DNA of 21,599 bases, from positions 1 through 21,599 of IMG/VR virus record IMGVR_UViG_3300031785_000065; one strand, 5' to 3'. The position numbers and the translations under genes are program-made. Below are positions 926-20,758 of this stretch, one piece after another (the stretch's first letter is position 1; each line of letters begins with the position of its first letter). The stretch is from a virus. Below the pieces are notes generated by a model. The model searched no databases. It saw nothing but the letters and a program-made list of their open reading frames with translations, and had not been told where the DNA came from.

Positions 926-3900
926 TTATTGTTGAAGGAGTGATAGGACGTCCGTGAAATCGGCTCCCATACGAAATTGTTTCTTAGCTCGCGTGACTTG
1001 ATCGTAGTAACCCGACAGTTCAGGGAACTCTCTCATAGTGTCGTCTAACGCTTCAGACCTATACTTGGTAAGAATGCTGTTTATCTTTTGAATACGAGGA
1101 CTAGGAAAGCCGGGTTCCGACGTAGCTGAAAGCTTTTGATAAGCTCTGGAACGAATAAGACGCTCAAGAGATTGACGAAGAGTACGACCGCCTATGCGTA
1201 TTGTCTTCAGTTTTTCCAAGCGTCTGTCGTGAGCGGTTTGACCGCTGTCGTTCTCAAAAGCCAACAAATCGATAAGGTTGTGATACGTCGAGGGAGGTTC
1301 GCGGAACGCATGGTTCAAGCTAGCCATCTCGTTTAGTATGACGTCGTTCTTTTCAGTACTTGTGGCAATCGGGTTAATAGCGCCTATGAGCGGCAGGTTC
1401 TCAACCATTATCTCTTCACCCAACAAATTACGCTTAGGGTCGAGATTATCTCGTCCACTCGGTATTTTGTTTAACAAGGCGTCAGCTAACGTACGTACTT
1501 CACGCGACTCCTGGTCGCCTGTTCCGTATTGTATCTGATTGAGAAAACCGCTGTAAGGAAGCATGGACGAACCAAAGTTACGAAGTAAGCGGTCGCCGTA
1601 TCGTTCCGGGTTACTCGCGGCTTCCGTAAACATCTGAAGACCCGCTAAGTACGATTTGTTCGTTACGTTGCGAGTAAAGGTTACGGCAACAGCCGAAAAT
1701 ACTTGGTCGATAGCGCTGTCGTTAAATCCTTTTGGTGACTTTATGCCTGTCTCAACGAGGTCGGCCATAACGCCTAACAACGTGCCGAACGGGTCGAGAC
1801 GTTGGTAACTGTAGTATTTACCGTCTATCTTAAAACTGTATGGTTGCCATCCTGTAGCTTGTAACGCTTTCTTCTGCTTATGATCCTTCGGACCGCCACC
1901 TGTAAGAAACTCACGATTGTTTAAAGCCAAGTCCAACAGCACGGCTCCGGCGATTGCGGAAGTTGCCATCTTACCCCGCGCTTGCGCTTTCAGAATAGGG
2001 TCGCTTCCTTTGTGGTCTTTCCATAGCTTTTTTACTTCCGTCGGAAGCATAAGAACACCAGGTGTCCGTTCGAAAGCGAACTTCAACAAGTTGGTAGGAG
2101 TACGAACAAACGGCAGAATAAACCCGACTAAATTATGCTTTTGAGAGAGGTTTTGAATCCCTCTTGCCAACGTTCCTTCTTCCAATTCCTTGGTGAACGT
2201 CATGTACCTAGCTTCGTCTACGGCGTAGTTAGCTAATCCGGAAGCGTCCTCGTTGAACTTTTCGTTCTTGTAGTTGATTATGAAGTCCGCTTTTTCTTGG
2301 CCTTTCAGTCCTTGGCCATCAGCTATTTCCGTACCTTCTCGTATCAACGACTCTTCGGACATGTAGCGTCCGCTATCGGTAACGATGCTTTCTAGCCCCT
2401 TCTCGATGTGTTCAGCGAGTTTGTAAGGATCTTGAATGCCTTGTCCCAATCCGTCCATAGCCAGCTTTAAGCGAGCGGAACGGCGGTAGTGCAGTTGTTT
2501 AAAGAACTCATCGGTCGTCATCAACAGACGCGAAGGAATGCGGATGAACTCACCCGCCCAGTTAAGAGTACCGTGCAGACGCTGTCCTTCCTTCACACCG
2601 AAAGCTTCAGCCGTTATAGCATTTTGCGGTCCTTCTCCAAACGCTCTGGCGTCGGGATCAAGGGTGTTCTCAGCGGTCTTTAAAGTGTTTCTGGCGAACT
2701 TGAACGCTTCCTTGTACATCGTCATGTCCGCCCATGAAGCGAACGCTTGCTTGGTTACTTCCAGGTTACCCGACAGAACACCGCCTACGGCAGTCTCAAG
2801 GGTACTCCAAACACCTGCTAAAGCGTTGCCCATCACGTTGACTACCTGTGTACGAGGACCACTCAAGATGCTGTTGATCCAATATTCGCGAGGCATGTCC
2901 AACAAACGGCTTCCTTGGGTCTTACGAGCGAGTCCCATGATACCGTTCAAGCTACCTTGCAGGTCGTTCGGATCAACGGTTTCGTCGATAATCTTCATTA
3001 TCTTGTCGGGGTCCATGCCACCGTTCTCGTTAATGAAGTTCTTGCGGATGCCTTCGCTCGTCATGTCGGCTTCGTTCAAACCGATCTTACGACTAGGTTC
3101 TTTGTTTCTACGTACGCCTAAAGCCAGCGAAGACTCGCGACCTAACCGCCAGTAGTAGTTGGAGAACTCGACAAGCTCTTGTAAAGTGTTCTTTAACTCA
3201 GCAACAGCGACGGTTCCTCCGCCTGATTGGCGATACTTGTCACCGGCTGTCATCAAGTTACGGACGAGACCCTCGCCTATCCGCTTGTAAACGGTTGCTT
3301 CAAGACGTACTTGTCGCTGGTTCTCTATGGTGTTCTCCATTCCTTTGAAGCGGTCGGTTATGACGTTGTCTCCAAAGTCCGTTGGAAGTCCTTCAGCCGC
3401 TTCTTGGTCGAGCTTTGCCATCGTTGCAGGGTCTTTCGTTACCTCTGCTCTAAGAGCCGCTGTTAACGAGTGAATGCCATCTGTGGTCTCCATACGAGGA
3501 GGAACGACTTCAGCGCCCTTAACGACCGCTTCAGAAAACTCCTTATGCTTGGGGTCGATGTCGCCAAGGTCTCCACGAACGGCTCCAAAAGTGCCTGGTT
3601 TACCTTTAACTACTCCTTTGGGACGCCCTTCGGATATAATATCCATACCGCTTCTCAAGGTCTGTTCAAGTAAAGTACCGTCGACGTCCTTCCCTAAAAT
3701 AGTTGCGACCAAAGAAACGAAACGATCCCATAAAGTCTTTTGTTTGCCTTTGATCTTTATACCGGCTAAAGCGCGTTGAAACGCTTCGTTTGTTAAACCG
3801 TGAGCAACAAACTCATCTATATTACTTAAAGCGTAGGAAAAACCAGGTTCCCCTTTTAAAGCTTGGTTCGCTTTGTTAAACGCCACCAATATGGATTTAT

Positions 3901-7653: not shown

Positions 7654-8195
7654 TATGAATTCATTTGTTTGATTTCCATACCCGTCCGATAACCGCTCAC
7701 AGCGCTTTGAGCCGCGCTTTGAGCCGCGCTTAGTCCCGCCGTCAGGAAGCTGGGTCGGTTGATTGGTCGGTTGATTCCTATCTGATTCATTCGGGTACGG
7801 TATCCGGCATCCGTCAAAGCGAGTCCGGTGTTAACGTTCTGAAGTTCTTGTTGTCGGGTAAGAGCGACGCGATAGTCCGCTTCCTGCCTCGTATAGTCGT
7901 CTAGAAGGGCATCCACGGATGCTCCGCTTACTCCTGCCTCACCTGCCGACACTCCGGCGCGAGACAACGCTTCTCGGCTCTTTATGGCTATGTCTCCCAA
8001 TTCCTTGTTCATCGCCTCTTGCTCCTGGGCTTGTCTCATACGCAACGCCGACTGCTCTTGAATGAACCGTTGACGCTCCGCTTCCGCCGCTTGAGCTTGG
8101 TAACGCTGTTGTTGCCTCGCTTGTTGGCGTTGACCGGCAAATTGCACACCCGCTTGTAAACCGCCTACGACCGCTAAAGCTGCTGGATTACACAT
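7653..8195 (-). CDS. Internal virion protein B, T7 gp14-like
   Basis: A 180-aa protein (T7 gp14 is 196 aa) in the gp13-gp14-gp15 order. T7 gp14 is ejected first and forms the outer-membrane part of the DNA channel. The N-terminus is short and hydrophobic (MCNPAALAVVGGLQAGVQFA). A Gln/Glu/Arg-rich segment likely to be a coiled coil follows (about 22-75). After it comes a Gly/Ser/Ala stretch with GVSGASVDALLDDYTRQEAD, which resembles other phage gp14-type proteins. The C-terminus is Ala/Gly/Ser-rich and contains two short amino-acid duplications (INRP twice, AAQS twice) that are direct 12-base DNA duplications. The start at 8195 has only a weak purine stretch upstream. The gene begins 2 bases after the gp13-like stop. 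Confidence 0.87.
   Translation of the reverse strand: MCNPAALAVVGGLQAGVQFAGQRQQARQQQRYQAQAAEAERQRFIQEQSALRMRQAQEQEAMNKELGDIAIKSREALSRAGVSAGEAGVSGASVDALLDDYTRQEADYRVALTRQQELQNVNTGLALTDAGYRTRMNQIGINRPINRPSFLTAGLSAAQSAAQSAVSGYRTGMEIKQMNS
7702..7731. repeat. 12-base tandem repeat, about 2.5 copies
   Basis: On the plus strand the unit gcgctttgagcc occurs at 7702-7713 and 7714-7725 and is followed by a half copy, gcgctt. On the minus strand this encodes the SAAQSAAQSA stretch near the C-terminus of the gp14-like protein. Twelve bases keep the reading frame. It was read directly from the sequence. Confidence 0.9.
7753..7776. repeat. 12-base perfect tandem duplication
   Basis: The unit ggtcggttgatt occurs twice, at 7753-7764 and 7765-7776, with no mismatch. 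It encodes the INRPINRP stretch of the gp14-like protein. It lies 21 bases from another, unrelated 12-base tandem repeat in the same gene. Confidence 0.9.
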
Positions 8196-12276: not shown

Positions 12277-13338
12277 TTAGCCTTGTAACTCGATAGCGCA
12301 CTCAGGACGGAGAACTCCGTGACCCATTGCGTACTTGGCTACGAAAAGCGTACCTTGACGATTGATGTCGTACTCGGACTCGGTGGCGAGATCGAGCAAC
12401 TTGACAGTACCCACAGCGGAAGGATGGGAGACAATTCCGACGGTCTTCGAAAAGTCGCCGTTGTATCCGCTTCCGCTTCCACCGAACACGTCGTTGGACG
12501 CAGCACCGTCACCGGTAGCATCCGCAGACAAATTGCCAGAAGGAATGTGAGTGGACTTGTAGATACTGATACCTGCAACTTGAGGTACTGTACCACTAGC
12601 AAGCGAACCGGAACCTCCAACGTCCTTATTAGCAGCGGAGGTGCTGATTACCAACGATCCACTACCGCCTGTGATGAGCTTGTAGTATTCCGTTGGACGA
12701 AGAACGCAGAAGCGACCCTCGGCGGGAACGTCGTTGTTGTCGAGACCAGCGGCGGCAGTGAACAATCCGGCTACAAGCTCTGCACCTGTAGGATCGGTGT
12801 TGTCTCCATCGTCTCCTGAGTCAGCGTGAGTGCCGAGTGCGTTAGCAGACAAGTCTACGATTTGACCTCCGTTACCACCGGTTACAGTCGTATCGGAACG
12901 AGCGGCGGCGATGAAGACCTTGGCGATAGCTTGGTCGAACCTACTAGCCAACGCGCGTCCCAACTCGGAAGAGTAAACGGAACGAATGTCGTAGTGGTTC
13001 TTTACGTCGTCGATACTAGCCAAGAACGAAGAAGCGAGAAGCACGTCGTCGATAGTGATGACAACTTCATTCTTCTTGATGTCGCTCAAGTAGCTGTTAC
13101 CTGCGTCCGCGATGTTCTGACCGGGAGTGTGGTAGGAAGCGGTAGCAACACCGGTAACGGGGAACTGAGCGCTCTTACCGCTGTCGATGGTGCGAACCGT
13201 GTGTAGTGGTTTGAATATGTTATTCGCTTCAAACGTCGTTAATATTTCACCGGCAAACTTCTTCAGAAAGAGAGCGTTAGCGTCTCCCGCCGAATTAATT
13301 TGACCGACGCGTGAGGGAGTGGTGTCTCCATTAGCCAT
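12277..13338 (-). CDS. Major capsid protein, T7 gp10-like
   Basis: A 353-aa protein (T7 gp10A is 345 aa) between scaffold and gp11, as in all T7-like phages. It has the HK97-fold capsid character of this group: an N-terminal arm with LFLKKFAGEILTTFEANNIF, then KSAQFPVTGVATASYHTPGQ, an E-loop-like segment, VVITIDDVLLASSFLASIDD, and a long helix with SSELGRALASRFDQAIAKVF. The Gly/Ser/Asp-rich stretches at about 150-180 and 230-290 are probably surface loops. It has a clear ribosome site: AAGGA at 13348-13352, 9 bases before the ATG, consistent with high expression. I saw no in-frame extension or frameshift product like T7 gp10B; the hairpin follows 18 bases after the stop. Identity is nearly certain. 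Confidence 0.95.
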   Translation of the reverse strand: MANGDTTPSRVGQINSAGDANALFLKKFAGEILTTFEANNIFKPLHTVRTIDSGKSAQFPVTGVATASYHTPGQNIADAGNSYLSDIKKNEVVITIDDVLLASSFLASIDDVKNHYDIRSVYSSELGRALASRFDQAIAKVFIAAARSDTTVTGGNGGQIVDLSANALGTHADSGDDGDNTDPTGAELVAGLFTAAAGLDNNDVPAEGRFCVLRPTEYYKLITGGSGSLVISTSAANKDVGGSGSLASGTVPQVAGISIYKSTHIPSGNLSADATGDGAASNDVFGGSGSGYNGDFSKTVGIVSHPSAVGTVKLLDLATESEYDINRQGTLFVAKYAMGHGVLRPECAIELQG

Positions 13339-13465: not shown

Positions 13466-13738
13466 TTAGTCGTCGGAGGTCAGCGGTATCGCGTACCATC
13501 CTTCGGGTAAGGTCACCTTGTTTGAACTCTTCTCCCAACCGCCCTCAGGCGTAGGAAAATAGACGTGACCTTTGACGTCGTCTGCTAGGCGGACAACGTC
13601 GGTGGATTCGAACGAACCGTCAACGAAGACGATCCTTTTGCTTCCGCAACCGCTTGCGAAGAGCAGACTGCAAACGATCCCTGTCTTCAGACTCCAGCTT
13701 GTGAGCGTCCGAAGCGGTCGTAGGTGTCTTGATTTCAT
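13466..13738 (-). CDS. Small lipoprotein, out-of-frame with the 59-aa gene (o-spanin candidate)
   Basis: A 90-aa protein. The N-terminus is basic (MKSRHLRPLRTLTSWSLKTG), then comes a hydrophobic stretch IVCSLLFASG and Cys31, a lipobox-like LFASGC. This suggests a lipoprotein with a mature part of about 60 aa. The mature part (VDGSFESTDVVRLADDVKGH, then KVTLPEGWYAIPL) resembles small phage lipoproteins that end in LPEGWY-type motifs; their function is not known to me. Its first 119 bases overlap the 59-aa gene in another frame, as Rz1 overlaps Rz. There is no strong ribosome site, so translation may be coupled to the overlapping gene. Against the spanin reading, it lacks the proline-rich character of Rz1. 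The lipoprotein call is good; the lysis role is inference. Confidence 0.6.
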   Translation of the reverse strand: MKSRHLRPLRTLTSWSLKTGIVCSLLFASGCGSKRIVFVDGSFESTDVVRLADDVKGHVYFPTPEGGWEKSSNKVTLPEGWYAIPLTSDD

Positions 13739-13799
13739 TTACGGTTTGTTTGAGGAAGAACTCGATTATCGTTTTAAGTATCGATGCGATGATCCCCAT
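13620..13799 (-). CDS. 59-aa amphipathic/charged protein, i-spanin candidate
   Basis: I found this gene by reading the complement. It starts at the ATG at 13799, whose first base is the last base of the upstream stop (TAATG), and ends with TGA at 13620. The N-terminal 20 residues MGIIASILKTIIEFFLKQTV are hydrophobic enough for a membrane or amphipathic helix. The middle (TPTTASDAHK) is polar. The C-terminus (about 35-59) is rich in Arg/Lys/Glu/Asp and probably helical. A single N-terminal membrane helix followed by a charged helix is the i-spanin (Rz) layout, and the lipoprotein gene begins inside it in another frame. However, 59 aa is very short for Rz (T7 gp18.5 is about 143 aa). Similar short proteins occur in other phages without known function. 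Confidence 0.6.
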   Translation of the reverse strand: MGIIASILKTIIEFFLKQTVNEIKTPTTASDAHKLESEDRDRLQSALRKRLRKQKDRLR

Positions 13800-13975
13800 T
13801 ACTTCTCTTTTGCCTTCCCGACGTTCAACGCCAACAGGTCGAGGATCTTGTACAGCTTCTTAACGATGCCGTCGTCTTTAGGGGTAGGCGTAATAGCCGC
13901 TACTGCCGAAGCAAGAGCCACAGCCGCCGTTAGTATGCCCAGGATAGCTTCCCAGTTTTCTTGTACGTATTGCAT
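13799..13975 (-). CDS. 58-aa holin-like protein
   Basis: I read this gene from the complement: ATG at 13975, TAA at 13799. A good ribosome site AAGGA lies upstream (the leader reads AAGGAACATC before the ATG). The protein opens with MQYVQENWEA, followed by one clear membrane segment ILGILTAAVALASAVAAI (about 11-28). A turn TPTPKDDG and a helix with a basic end (IVKKLYKILDLLALNVGKAK) follow. A short protein with an N-terminal transmembrane helix and a basic tail fits a small holin or holin-like protein. The two genes after it, a short membrane protein and a nested lipoprotein, strengthen a lysis reading. No endolysin lies in this window; in T7 the amidase gene is in the early region. The gene is real with high probability; function is moderate. 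Confidence 0.7.
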   Translation of the reverse strand: MQYVQENWEAILGILTAAVALASAVAAITPTPKDDGIVKKLYKILDLLALNVGKAKEK

Positions 13976-13988
13976 GATGTTCCTTATG

Positions 13989-14747
13989 TTAAAGATTACT
14001 TACTGCTAGTCGTCGGTCTACCTCGGCGTGATACGCTTTGTCTCCGCTCTTGTATCGAGGGTCGTTCATTGCTCTGGTGACCTCCTGCATGGATTGATAC
14101 GGTAAAGTGGCTGAACCCGTCGTAGACCCCATAGCGAGCTTTGGAGCGGTTGAACCGTTCGCCGCCTTGTACCGCGCGTGTAAACCGCTTACGGCGAGCT
14201 TGGCGTGTTCTACGGAACCCGTGGTAACTACCTCGTTGTAGGTGTCCATCTCTTCGTCGGTGAGGTTTTGACCCGCCCATTCCGTCATGGCATCGTAGTC
14301 GTTACCGGCAACGCCTTTTATAGCCGACTGTTGGTTCTCCATGAGAGCGGCTTGACCGGCGGCGTAGCTGTCCACTAGCTCACGATTGAGTCCTAGCTTG
14401 GCTAACGATTCATAGGTGTCGTCCGTAAGCTCGCCTTTTTCGAAGAACTCTTTCGACGCCTCTATGATCAAATCGTTGCTTTCAGTCGGTTCGGTTTCAG
14501 CGACTTCTTCGTCCGCTTTGTCCGATCCTAGCTTCTTCTCTAGCTCGCCGTAGGCTTTCGCCATGTCTTCAGCGGATTCGAACTTCTCAGGAAGCCACTC
14601 AGGACGCTCCGCATCATCTACGGTCTCTCCTTGCGAATCCCCATTCCCTGCATCCTCCGCATTGACGGGAACGTCCTCGGTAACTTCTTCCGGTTCGATC
14701 TCTCCGGGCGTTTTCTCGTTTATTTCGACTCGTTGTAATTCAGCCAT
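13989..14747 (-). CDS. Scaffolding (capsid assembly) protein, T7 gp9-like
   Basis: A 252-aa protein between portal and capsid genes, the gp9 position (T7 gp9 is about 307 aa). The first 60 residues are very acidic (GEIEPEEVTEDVPVNAED), followed by PEWLPEKFESAEDMAKAYGE. That segment is typical of podophage scaffolds and is followed by a helical core. The C-terminus is more basic (NDPRYKSGDKAYHAEVDRRL), as expected for the capsid-binding helix-turn-helix of scaffolds. The protein shapes the procapsid and leaves before maturation. The ribosome site is good (AAGGAAACAAACG before the ATG). Only 13 bases separate its stop from the holin-like gene. Identity rests on position, acidity and the conserved segment. 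Confidence 0.88.
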   Translation of the reverse strand: MAELQRVEINEKTPGEIEPEEVTEDVPVNAEDAGNGDSQGETVDDAERPEWLPEKFESAEDMAKAYGELEKKLGSDKADEEVAETEPTESNDLIIEASKEFFEKGELTDDTYESLAKLGLNRELVDSYAAGQAALMENQQSAIKGVAGNDYDAMTEWAGQNLTDEEMDTYNEVVTTGSVEHAKLAVSGLHARYKAANGSTAPKLAMGSTTGSATLPYQSMQEVTRAMNDPRYKSGDKAYHAEVDRRLAVSNL

Positions 14748-18730: not shown

Positions 18731-18937
18731 TTATGTTGGTAAATTGACGCCGCTTCCACCGTAAGAACCACCCATAGACGGACGCTTAACGGTTAATTGG
18801 CTAGTGCCTCTGCGTTTTTTGGTCGCACCTGTTCGTCCTTGTTTAGGAGCTTTGGCCACTACCGCCGTTTCAGCCGGTGGAGGCGGAGGTGGTGGAGGCG
18901 GAGGAGGTGTTTTCGGTTCTGAACCGCCGAAGCACAT
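18731..18937 (-). CDS. Polyproline, basic small protein; T7 gp7.3-like C-terminus
   Basis: A 68-aa protein. It begins MCFGGSEPKT, followed by 11 prolines in a row (residues 11-21, DNA 18875-18907). A basic middle follows (KAPKQGRTGATKKRRGTSQL), and the end is Gly/Ser-rich (VKRPSMGGSYGGSGVNLPT). From memory, T7 gp7.3, a 99-aa virion/tail assembly protein encoded just before the portal, also ends with a basic Arg/Lys/Gly stretch, an S-L-x-V segment and a Gly-rich end of GGGIN type. Position (between exonuclease and portal) and this C-terminal pattern suggest the same role. The ribosome site is good (AAGGATTAATC before the ATG) and lies inside the preceding gene. The homology is suggestive, not proved. 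Confidence 0.7.
   Translation of the reverse strand: MCFGGSEPKTPPPPPPPPPPPAETAVVAKAPKQGRTGATKKRRGTSQLTVKRPSMGGSYGGSGVNLPT
18875..18907 (-). repeat. Eleven consecutive proline codons
   Basis: Codons CCT, CCG and CCA follow each other 11 times, encoding residues 11-21 of the small basic protein. Mixed third bases show the run is not a simple trinucleotide expansion, which suggests selection for the amino acids. Such runs normally stall ribosomes unless EF-P acts. Confidence 0.9.
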
Positions 18938-19500: not shown

Positions 19501-20228
19501 AGATATGTTAGTTCCTTTCGTTTAATGTTGTATTCGTCTTTGCGTAGTAGTCGAGCCATCCATGCGTTCATCAACGCCTCCTCTTCCGTCAAGCCTTTCT
19601 CTTCGTACAGCTTCATGACCGACGCCCAAGTGTATCCGTTCTCTTCCAACCAACGTTTGGCTCGTACCGTACCGATACCCGGAACGCCGTAGTACCCGTC
19701 CGTAGAGTCTCCCGATATGACTTGTTCCAAATGGAAGCGGTCTGCGGCGTCTACGCTCGGTTCATGCATTTCGTCTTTGTTGAAATCGTAGTACATGCCC
19801 GGAACGCCTTTGAAGTCCTTGTCTACGCTTACTATGATTCGTCTGTCGGTGCGGTTCGGTCGTTCGGTAGCGAGTATCGACAACACGTCGTCAGCTTCCA
19901 GGTTAGGCCACTGCACGGTTCCGTACTCCTCATCCAACCACTTCTTGATAGGTCGCAGTCCTATAGGTTTGAACACGCCTTTGCGGTTCGCTTTGTACAA
20001 CGGGTTAAGTTTGCGTCGGAAGTTCTTTGGGTCGGACAGAGCCAACACCATAGAGTCCGCTTCCAACTTCTCACGGAACGTTTCTATCCTGTCCACTATC
20101 CACGCCTTGGCTACCGCTAGGTCGGCATGGACGGTCCATAGGTCGTCTTCCCATTGTACGGGTTGCTGACATATAGCCGCTCCTTGGAACGCCAACACGT
20201 CCGCGTCTATTAACATCATCGTTTTCAT
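19326..20228 (-). CDS. 5'-3' exonuclease, T7 gp6-like
   Basis: A 300-aa protein, the same length as T7 gp6, a 5'-3' double-strand exonuclease (RNase H activity too) that degrades host DNA, removes primers and helps concatemer processing. FEN-family metal ligands are visible: D8 and D10 (LIDADVLAF), E111/D113/D114 (LEADDVLSI), D136 and D138 (SVDKDF), and D174/D177 in GDSTDGYYGVPGIGTVRAKR, the helix-hairpin or H2TH region. Basic residues R71/R72/K73 lie in the arch region. The last 58 residues (after about 242) are Pro/Ser/Thr-rich and overlap the diphosphohydrolase gene, so the natural domain probably ends near residue 245. The start at 20228 has a weak GAGA purine site; ATGs at codons 4 and 5 are alternatives. 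It follows the nuclease gene by 5 bases. Confidence 0.92.
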   Translation of the reverse strand: MKTMMLIDADVLAFQGAAICQQPVQWEDDLWTVHADLAVAKAWIVDRIETFREKLEADSMVLALSDPKNFRRKLNPLYKANRKGVFKPIGLRPIKKWLDEEYGTVQWPNLEADDVLSILATERPNRTDRRIIVSVDKDFKGVPGMYYDFNKDEMHEPSVDAADRFHLEQVISGDSTDGYYGVPGIGTVRAKRWLEENGYTWASVMKLYEEKGLTEEEALMNAWMARLLRKDEYNIKRKELTYLWMPANYPPAEKRKYSKVVRSVTGTLDEDDSALSPQPHFSPSPSVSKTEPSTMATTTG

Positions 20229-20233
20229 CGTTG

Positions 20234-20758
20234 TTATTCTTTCTCTTTAGGTTGTTCGTAAAAAGGCGACCAGTTGTCACGGTACTTCTCGTACTTACTC
20301 GCCGACCGTTTGTTTCCCGCCATTAGTTTTATCGTCTTGGGTATCTTGATCGTATTCGGTAAGACGTACCAAGCTTTCTCCGGGTCGACGAAACACACGA
20401 CTAAATCCACTTCGTTTCCTATCGACTTCTTCACGACGCTGCCCGTACACGTCATAAGTTTGTAGCTGCCGTATTCGCCTTTAGCCTCCGTTCCTTTAAC
20501 TTGAACCCTTAAGTCACCAGCCGGACACGTCACGATAAAGTCCCACGCTTGCGGAACCGTCGGGTCGTGAGGTTCGAAACCGCGTCTCAGACATTCCGTC
20601 CTGAACTCGCTCTCATACACCGCTCCCTGTATGTTTGTTTTGCTTACCATAGTTCTTTGTTGTTGTTGTTCTTTCCAATCCCACGGTACTCGCAGGTCTT
20701 GGGTATCGTATGCCCACGCTAAAGCTAGACACGTCTCCATCTCCACTTGTTCATTCAT
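20234..20758 (-). CDS. PD-(D/E)XK nuclease (QVK variant, PDDEXK_5-like)
   Basis: The protein has 174 aa when started at 20758, where the ATG shares a base with the polymerase stop (TAATG) and GGAG lies 8 bases upstream. A longer frame to 20812 has no support. An ATG at codon 37 (20650), where the conserved part begins, is an alternative without a ribosome site. The core has YESEFRTECLRRGFEPHDPT (E49/E51), then AWDFIV (D73) and LRVQVKGTEA (Q86, K88). This D-x12-QxK with an upstream Glu fits the PDDEXK_5 group and has the spacing of archaeal Holliday junction resolvases. A role in resolving recombination intermediates, like T7 gp3, or in host DNA breakdown is plausible. The last 30 residues are charged. 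The fold call is good; the substrate is open. Confidence 0.8.
   Translation of the reverse strand: MNEQVEMETCLALAWAYDTQDLRVPWDWKEQQQQRTMVSKTNIQGAVYESEFRTECLRRGFEPHDPTVPQAWDFIVTCPAGDLRVQVKGTEAKGEYGSYKLMTCTGSVVKKSIGNEVDLVVCFVDPEKAWYVLPNTIKIPKTIKLMAGNKRSASKYEKYRDNWSPFYEQPKEKE

Follow-up and report, generated by a model that had tools for sequence, protein, structure and literature searches.

The window analysed here is the whole of a 21,599-base IMG/VR fragment of a T7-like virus whose late genes lie on the minus strand. Between the scaffold and major capsid genes, in an interval referred to below as the slot, are three small genes transcribed in the order a58, b59 and c90 (Table 1). An earlier note on this DNA had placed three open reading frames between positions 13466 and 13975, and all of them are present there on the minus strand, together with the TAATG join it had described, in which one base is common to a58 and b59. 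Its picture of the lipoprotein gene as nested out of frame in the 59-aa gene holds in part: c90 does start inside b59, 61 nt after the b59 start and in the +1 frame relative to it, but after an overlap of 119 bp it extends 154 nt past the b59 end, so that the layout is 'overlapped' rather than 'nested'. A search of the slot for promoters and terminators gave nothing beyond chance expectation.

Table 1. Features of the scaffold-capsid slot and its borders in the window, with early lipoprotein genes of three relatives (last row, positions in the relatives)
Feature	Position	Strand	Description
a58	13799..13975	-	58 aa, one transmembrane helix at about residues 10-28, phrog_9685
b59	13620..13799	-	59 aa, amphipathic helix 2-23, cationic helix 37-58
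c90	13466..13738	-	90 aa, predicted outer-membrane lipoprotein; leader, linker, small beta domain 50-82
c90 lipobox A28-S29-G30-C31, Gly at +2	13646..13657	-	
b59/c90 overlap	13620..13738	-	+1 frame, dual coding
Scaffold, gp9-like	13989..14747	-	upstream slot border; phrog_1052, PF05396
Major capsid, gp10-like	12277..13338	-	downstream slot border; PF21703, phrog_267
Early lipoproteins of G002, G003, G007	2885-3037, 7777-7974, 29601-29735		

Genes this short, with overlapping frames, might be taken for chance open reading frames, but that explanation is as good as ruled out by purifying selection together with the conserved frame and lipobox. Across ten homologues pN/pS is 0.19 for a58 and 0.44 for the single-coding part of c90, while the b59/c90 overlap has a synonymous difference of about 0.50, lower than the 0.72-0.75 of single-coding parts, as expected for dual coding. 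Synonymous shuffling of the b59 codons regained the c90 start and lipobox in none of 20,000 trials. The earlier note had also held that loss of the lipobox and overlapping frame in close relatives would count against its proposal; both frames, the c90 start and the lipobox are in fact kept in the six closest relatives of b59 (88-93% in b59).

The c90 lipobox, called by a sequence-pattern test, reads ASGC and is preceded by a basic and hydrophobic leader. As looked for in an o-spanin signal, there is no Asp at +2; Gly stands in that position, and by that criterion the protein would not be retained at the inner membrane. Asp at +2 is likewise absent from all 106 lipoproteins found in the slot of relatives and from 30 wider c homologues. 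The beta domain is confidently predicted and has a fold without a solved counterpart, Foldseek of the model against the PDB having given no significant match and a PDB search with a c90-homologue profile a single, non-significant hit; the model does match one viral protein (E 1.8e-5) and, marginally, one uncharacterised phage protein. The profile search for spanin families proposed earlier for the 59-aa and 90-aa proteins gave neither of them a name: b59 and c90 match no spanin or other named family in PHROGs, Pfam or NCBIfam, nor did tblastn of the two and of an 86-aa relative against named phages return a match. The window pair is without a periplasmic cysteine in b59 or mature c90, a residue that is usual, not absolute, in two-component spanin systems (507 of the 528 catalogued; PMC6139136), and four b homologues (L194, L195, L196 and L201) have cysteines. 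We consider c90 a likely o-spanin-like lipoprotein, predicted to lie in the outer membrane.

Its putative partner, b59, carries a conserved KxxAxDA..R.R motif and is predicted to form two helices (mean pLDDT 71). Of the two helices described earlier, the cationic C-terminal one stands, but the N-terminal one is amphipathic (K9, E13, K17) and not convincingly transmembrane. Judged by simple hydropathy and insertion scales, the latter crude, it scores poorly as a transmembrane segment, with a 19-residue hydropathy maximum of 1.28 and an approximate insertion energy of about +5, and most of the b family is similar; the Rz-type proteins of two other loci (L064 and L072) give -1.6. By these scales b59 does not have the N-terminal transmembrane domain and periplasmic C-terminus of an i-spanin, and its sequence marks it as i-spanin-like in position, not in topology. 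What survives of the proposed Rz/Rz1-like layout is an overlapped, adjacent pair with a lipobox; the transmembrane i-spanin and a family match do not.

Comparison with known systems leads to a similar mixture. The 'overlapped' type of P2 LysB/LysC also has a lipoprotein gene that starts in the +1 frame inside its partner and extends beyond it (PMC6139136), although b59 is shorter and without a convincing transmembrane domain, and the window pair lacks the periplasmic cysteine. T7 gp18.5/gp18.7 (Rz/Rz1-like) likewise consists of a membrane-bound protein and a lipoprotein encoded by overlapping genes in two frames, but in T7 the slot holds no gene, the spanins lie between the small and large terminase genes, the o-spanin is fully embedded and the i-spanin is 143 aa long. 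We also considered the disruptin of phiKT (gp28), a cationic lysis peptide used instead of spanins, in view of the small size and +6 net charge of b59, but here a lipoprotein is also present, and the idea is weakened by the charge not being conserved among b homologues (-4 to +9). The phiKT slot is empty.

The third protein, a58, has its transmembrane helix (approximate insertion energy -0.45) followed by a TPTPKDD motif and a basic amphipathic tail, and matches phrog_9685 (E 3.9e-15), a PHROGs family with no assigned function. Homologues in non-T7 phages adjoin Rz/Rz1 (L064 and L072), lysozyme or amidase genes; at L043 the neighbours are an amidase and a different overlapping lipoprotein pair, a 'nested' one. 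The description of this gene as holin-like is thus borne out by its small size, at least one transmembrane helix and lysis neighbourhood, and not by family, there being no match to described holin families. Going by sequence features, a58 is a possible, unproven holin and probably not the only one, because relatives carry a separate candidate after the fiber gene, at the gp17.5 position.

To see what occupies the slot elsewhere, we used 106 IMG/VR loci that contain the scaffold as well as the capsid gene and that group, at 95% capsid identity, into 39 clusters; those among them that were retrieved via the capsid are not biased to small slot genes. Every one of the 106 has a lipobox ORF in the slot (99 by the strict pattern, 7 by a relaxed one), a density of 1.28 per kb, compared with 0.0009 per kb for the rest of the coding strand; outside the slot, the strict pattern found one match in about 1,080 kb of coding strand, within the capsid gene of the window. 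At L092 and in its relatives, the gene for a 154-aa protein that has several hydrophobic stretches (L092:3216-3680) contains a fully embedded lipoprotein gene in another frame (3355-3624), and such an embedded frame is expected to be open in <1% of codon shuffles. The slot lipoproteins as a whole form four families without detectable mutual similarity (43, 27, 23 and 13 loci). All members of the family of 27 have, besides the lipobox, a mature part with a C-terminal transmembrane segment. This is the design of the T1 gp11 u-spanins, a likeness that belongs to these relatives and not to the window genes, and for one member there is a weak match to a spanin family in PHROGs (E 0.024). Since unrelated lysis-type gene sets occupy the same spot in relatives, these sequences strongly support the scaffold-capsid position as a real lysis slot; the idea of a lysis-type gene set inside the head operon is supported, and the arrangement is kept in relatives.

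Pseudomonas phage LUZ100 has in its slot an a58 homologue (gp37), an unannotated 78-aa ORF and a lipoprotein, gp38, overlapping that ORF (20081-20617; L165:18884-19420). The arrangement resembles that of the window, with the difference that gp38 belongs to another lipoprotein family and has two further cysteines. It matches the Rz-like spanin family phrog_1275 (E 1.6e-12), and its homologues are annotated Rz1 or o-spanin; according to the LUZ100 paper, spanin genes could not be annotated in this phage (PMC10134795). Gp50 of LUZ100 weakly matches Phage_holin_2_2, below cut-off. The slot of Rhizobium phage Pasto (MT708545, CPT_Pasto_041-044) contains, as deposited, an endolysin, a class II holin, an i-spanin and an o-spanin. 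This is the same slot in another T7-like phage, and its holin, i-spanin and overlapping o-spanin are arranged in the order of the window genes, but an endolysin is included, the i-spanin has a clear transmembrane helix, and no sequence family was found in common with b59 or c90. For the Pasto o-spanin there is a weak match to LysC (PF23793; E 2.5e-4, below cut-off), and our literature search found no publication on the Pasto lysis genes. A lysis cassette in this slot is therefore not unprecedented; the slot has mostly been overlooked, and its annotation in Pasto concerns one GenBank isolate.

Other named phages have other genes there: Limnohabitans phage YIMV22061 has a GTA_holin_3TM protein (E 1.6e-17). 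In HTVC168P, CRP-125 and P-SCSP2 no coding-strand lipobox ORF was found in the stretches covered (nearly all of the first two, and 33.7 of the 37.3 kb of P-SCSP2), and their slots contain very basic tiny proteins (L164:17601-18102, L167:19744-19878 and L163:11658-12636, respectively). Similar basic proteins lie after the fiber in three relatives of the window (G002, G007 and G010).

Small phage lipoproteins of the receptor-blocking kind, such as T5 Llp or Cor, exist, and co-expression with the capsid would suit protection of the progeny, so that c90 might serve superinfection exclusion instead of lysis. We regard this as improbable: all 106 loci have a slot lipoprotein, drawn from unrelated families of which one has a spanin-like second membrane anchor, the same slot contains a protein with a spanin match in LUZ100 and one annotated as a spanin in Pasto, b59 and c90 match no defence family in PADLOC, and a match to Cor was obtained for another slot family at E 0.4 only.

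The b and c genes also occur together well outside this phage group. Scanning with c90 homologues gave 74 loci. In all 28 examined, which include phages without this capsid and one 167-kb contig, the c start lies inside a b homologue in its +1 frame, so that among the embedded, overlapped and separated architectures of two-component spanins the pair is of the overlapped kind. Because b and c keep this fixed frame together across unrelated phages, b59 is likely, on comparative grounds, to be a dedicated partner of c90. The gene before b varies, being a58 or one of several two-helix proteins, and this apparent modular exchange of a58 and other neighbours around b and c is the behaviour of lysis genes. 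At L229 and L237 a two-helix protein gene precedes b and c, and these are followed by the capsid and, directly after it, a lysozyme gene (L229:6107-6724; L237:7541-8200, below the Pfam cut-off); the predicted L237 protein has a hydrophobic segment at its start and so might be either an endolysin with a signal anchor or an enzyme of the virion. The 167-kb contig (L017/L216), far above T7-like genome size, has the whole trio, with a58 81% identical, which suggests transfer of the cassette between phages of different types. Searches with four endolysin families turned up few matches in the 25 records carrying c (or, at L043, a58), and Amidase_2, Peptidase_M15_3 and GH108 gave no useful match in such records. 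The prophage search found only one contig, from a Neomarinimicrobiota MAG (L252; JASMKZ010000072.1), with a c homologue at its edge, possibly a hint of the host or a misbinned phage.

The position of the trio in the head operon, and of the L212 b and c pair before a head maturation protease, would also fit accessories of head assembly or minor virion proteins acting with scaffold and capsid. This is highly improbable, however, given that the c90 lipobox leader directs export from the cytoplasm, that unrelated phages lacking these capsid genes also carry the b and c pair, and that slot contents are replaced by unrelated lipoprotein sets with scaffold and capsid remaining homologous.

The window contig ends before the fiber and terminase genes, so the rest of the lysis complement could be examined indirectly, in nine long relatives and AP013544. 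The earlier note had asked whether related phages lack spanins after the fiber, and the near-complete relatives agree with this: the post-fiber or terminase regions covered, in G001, G002, G003, G005, G007, G010 and AP013544, showed no pair of the Rz/Rz1 type. A small transmembrane protein stands at the gp17.5 position wherever the fiber-to-terminase stretch was covered, and an amidase follows the large terminase in AP013544, G001 and G008. A link between the 58-aa membrane protein before b and c at L195 and the AP013544 protein at the gp17.5 position was tried and dropped, the similarity not being significant. In the early region of G002, G003 and G007, between the genes for the terminase and the RNA polymerase, lie genes for cysteine-rich lipoproteins 44-65 aa long; the window itself encodes a 68-aa protein (18731-18937, minus strand) with an 11-proline run and a weak match to phrog_1391, which has no assigned function.

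In G002, G005, G007 and G010 the protein at the gp17.5 position is 83-96 aa long, with an N-terminal transmembrane helix and a coiled coil, and weakly matches both the Rz-like spanin family phrog_739 (E 0.027-0.042) and the holin family phrog_1296. Its i-spanin topology and phrog_739 match, taken with the want of a clear transmembrane domain in b59, raise the question whether this protein, and not b59, is the partner of c90 as o-spanin, b59 being only an accessory or regulatory peptide. We think this unlikely, as the protein is also found in G002 and G007, whose u-spanin-like slot protein needs no partner, and as the joint occurrence of b and c in a fixed frame across unrelated phages points to b.

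We consider it probable, from the comparisons above, that the trio is a late lysis module in the head operon, mainly for outer-membrane disruption, with c90 as an o-spanin-like protein, b59 as its partner and a58 as a holin-like protein, although the spanin reading in its details holds only partially. The trio would be expressed together with the capsid. We infer that c90 would be lipidated and then sorted to the outer membrane, and that b59, translated just before it, would contact c90 in the place of an i-spanin, binding the inner membrane via its amphipathic N-terminal helix, with the small, holin-like a58 as a membrane protein accompanying pairs of this kind. A holin, either a58 or a gp17.5-type protein after the fiber, would permeabilise the inner membrane, an endolysin encoded elsewhere would cut the cell wall, and b59 and c90 would then act jointly on the outer membrane.

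More tentatively, and with considerable doubt, one may ask whether b59 and c90 form an outer-membrane disruption pair without a transmembrane i-spanin, a third route beside spanins and disruptins. The amphipathic b59 would reach the periplasm after holin action, or lie flat on the inner membrane, and would work with an outer-membrane lipoprotein bearing a small beta domain. Such a pair, similarly doubtful, would occur in marine T7-like and other phages. In a spanin survey of 677 phages, 91 yielded no spanin, and marine podoviruses belong to this group (PMC6139136).

For annotators, the fixed scaffold-capsid slot offers a guide to genes of this kind, with candidate genes in LUZ100, which has a laboratory host. 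If b59 truly has no transmembrane domain, the pair tests the need for bridging by a membrane-spanning i-spanin. And if the preferred reading of the trio as a lysis module is true, the repeated occurrence of unrelated lipoprotein sets in one place would mean strong selection on the function and weak selection on the protein that carries it out.
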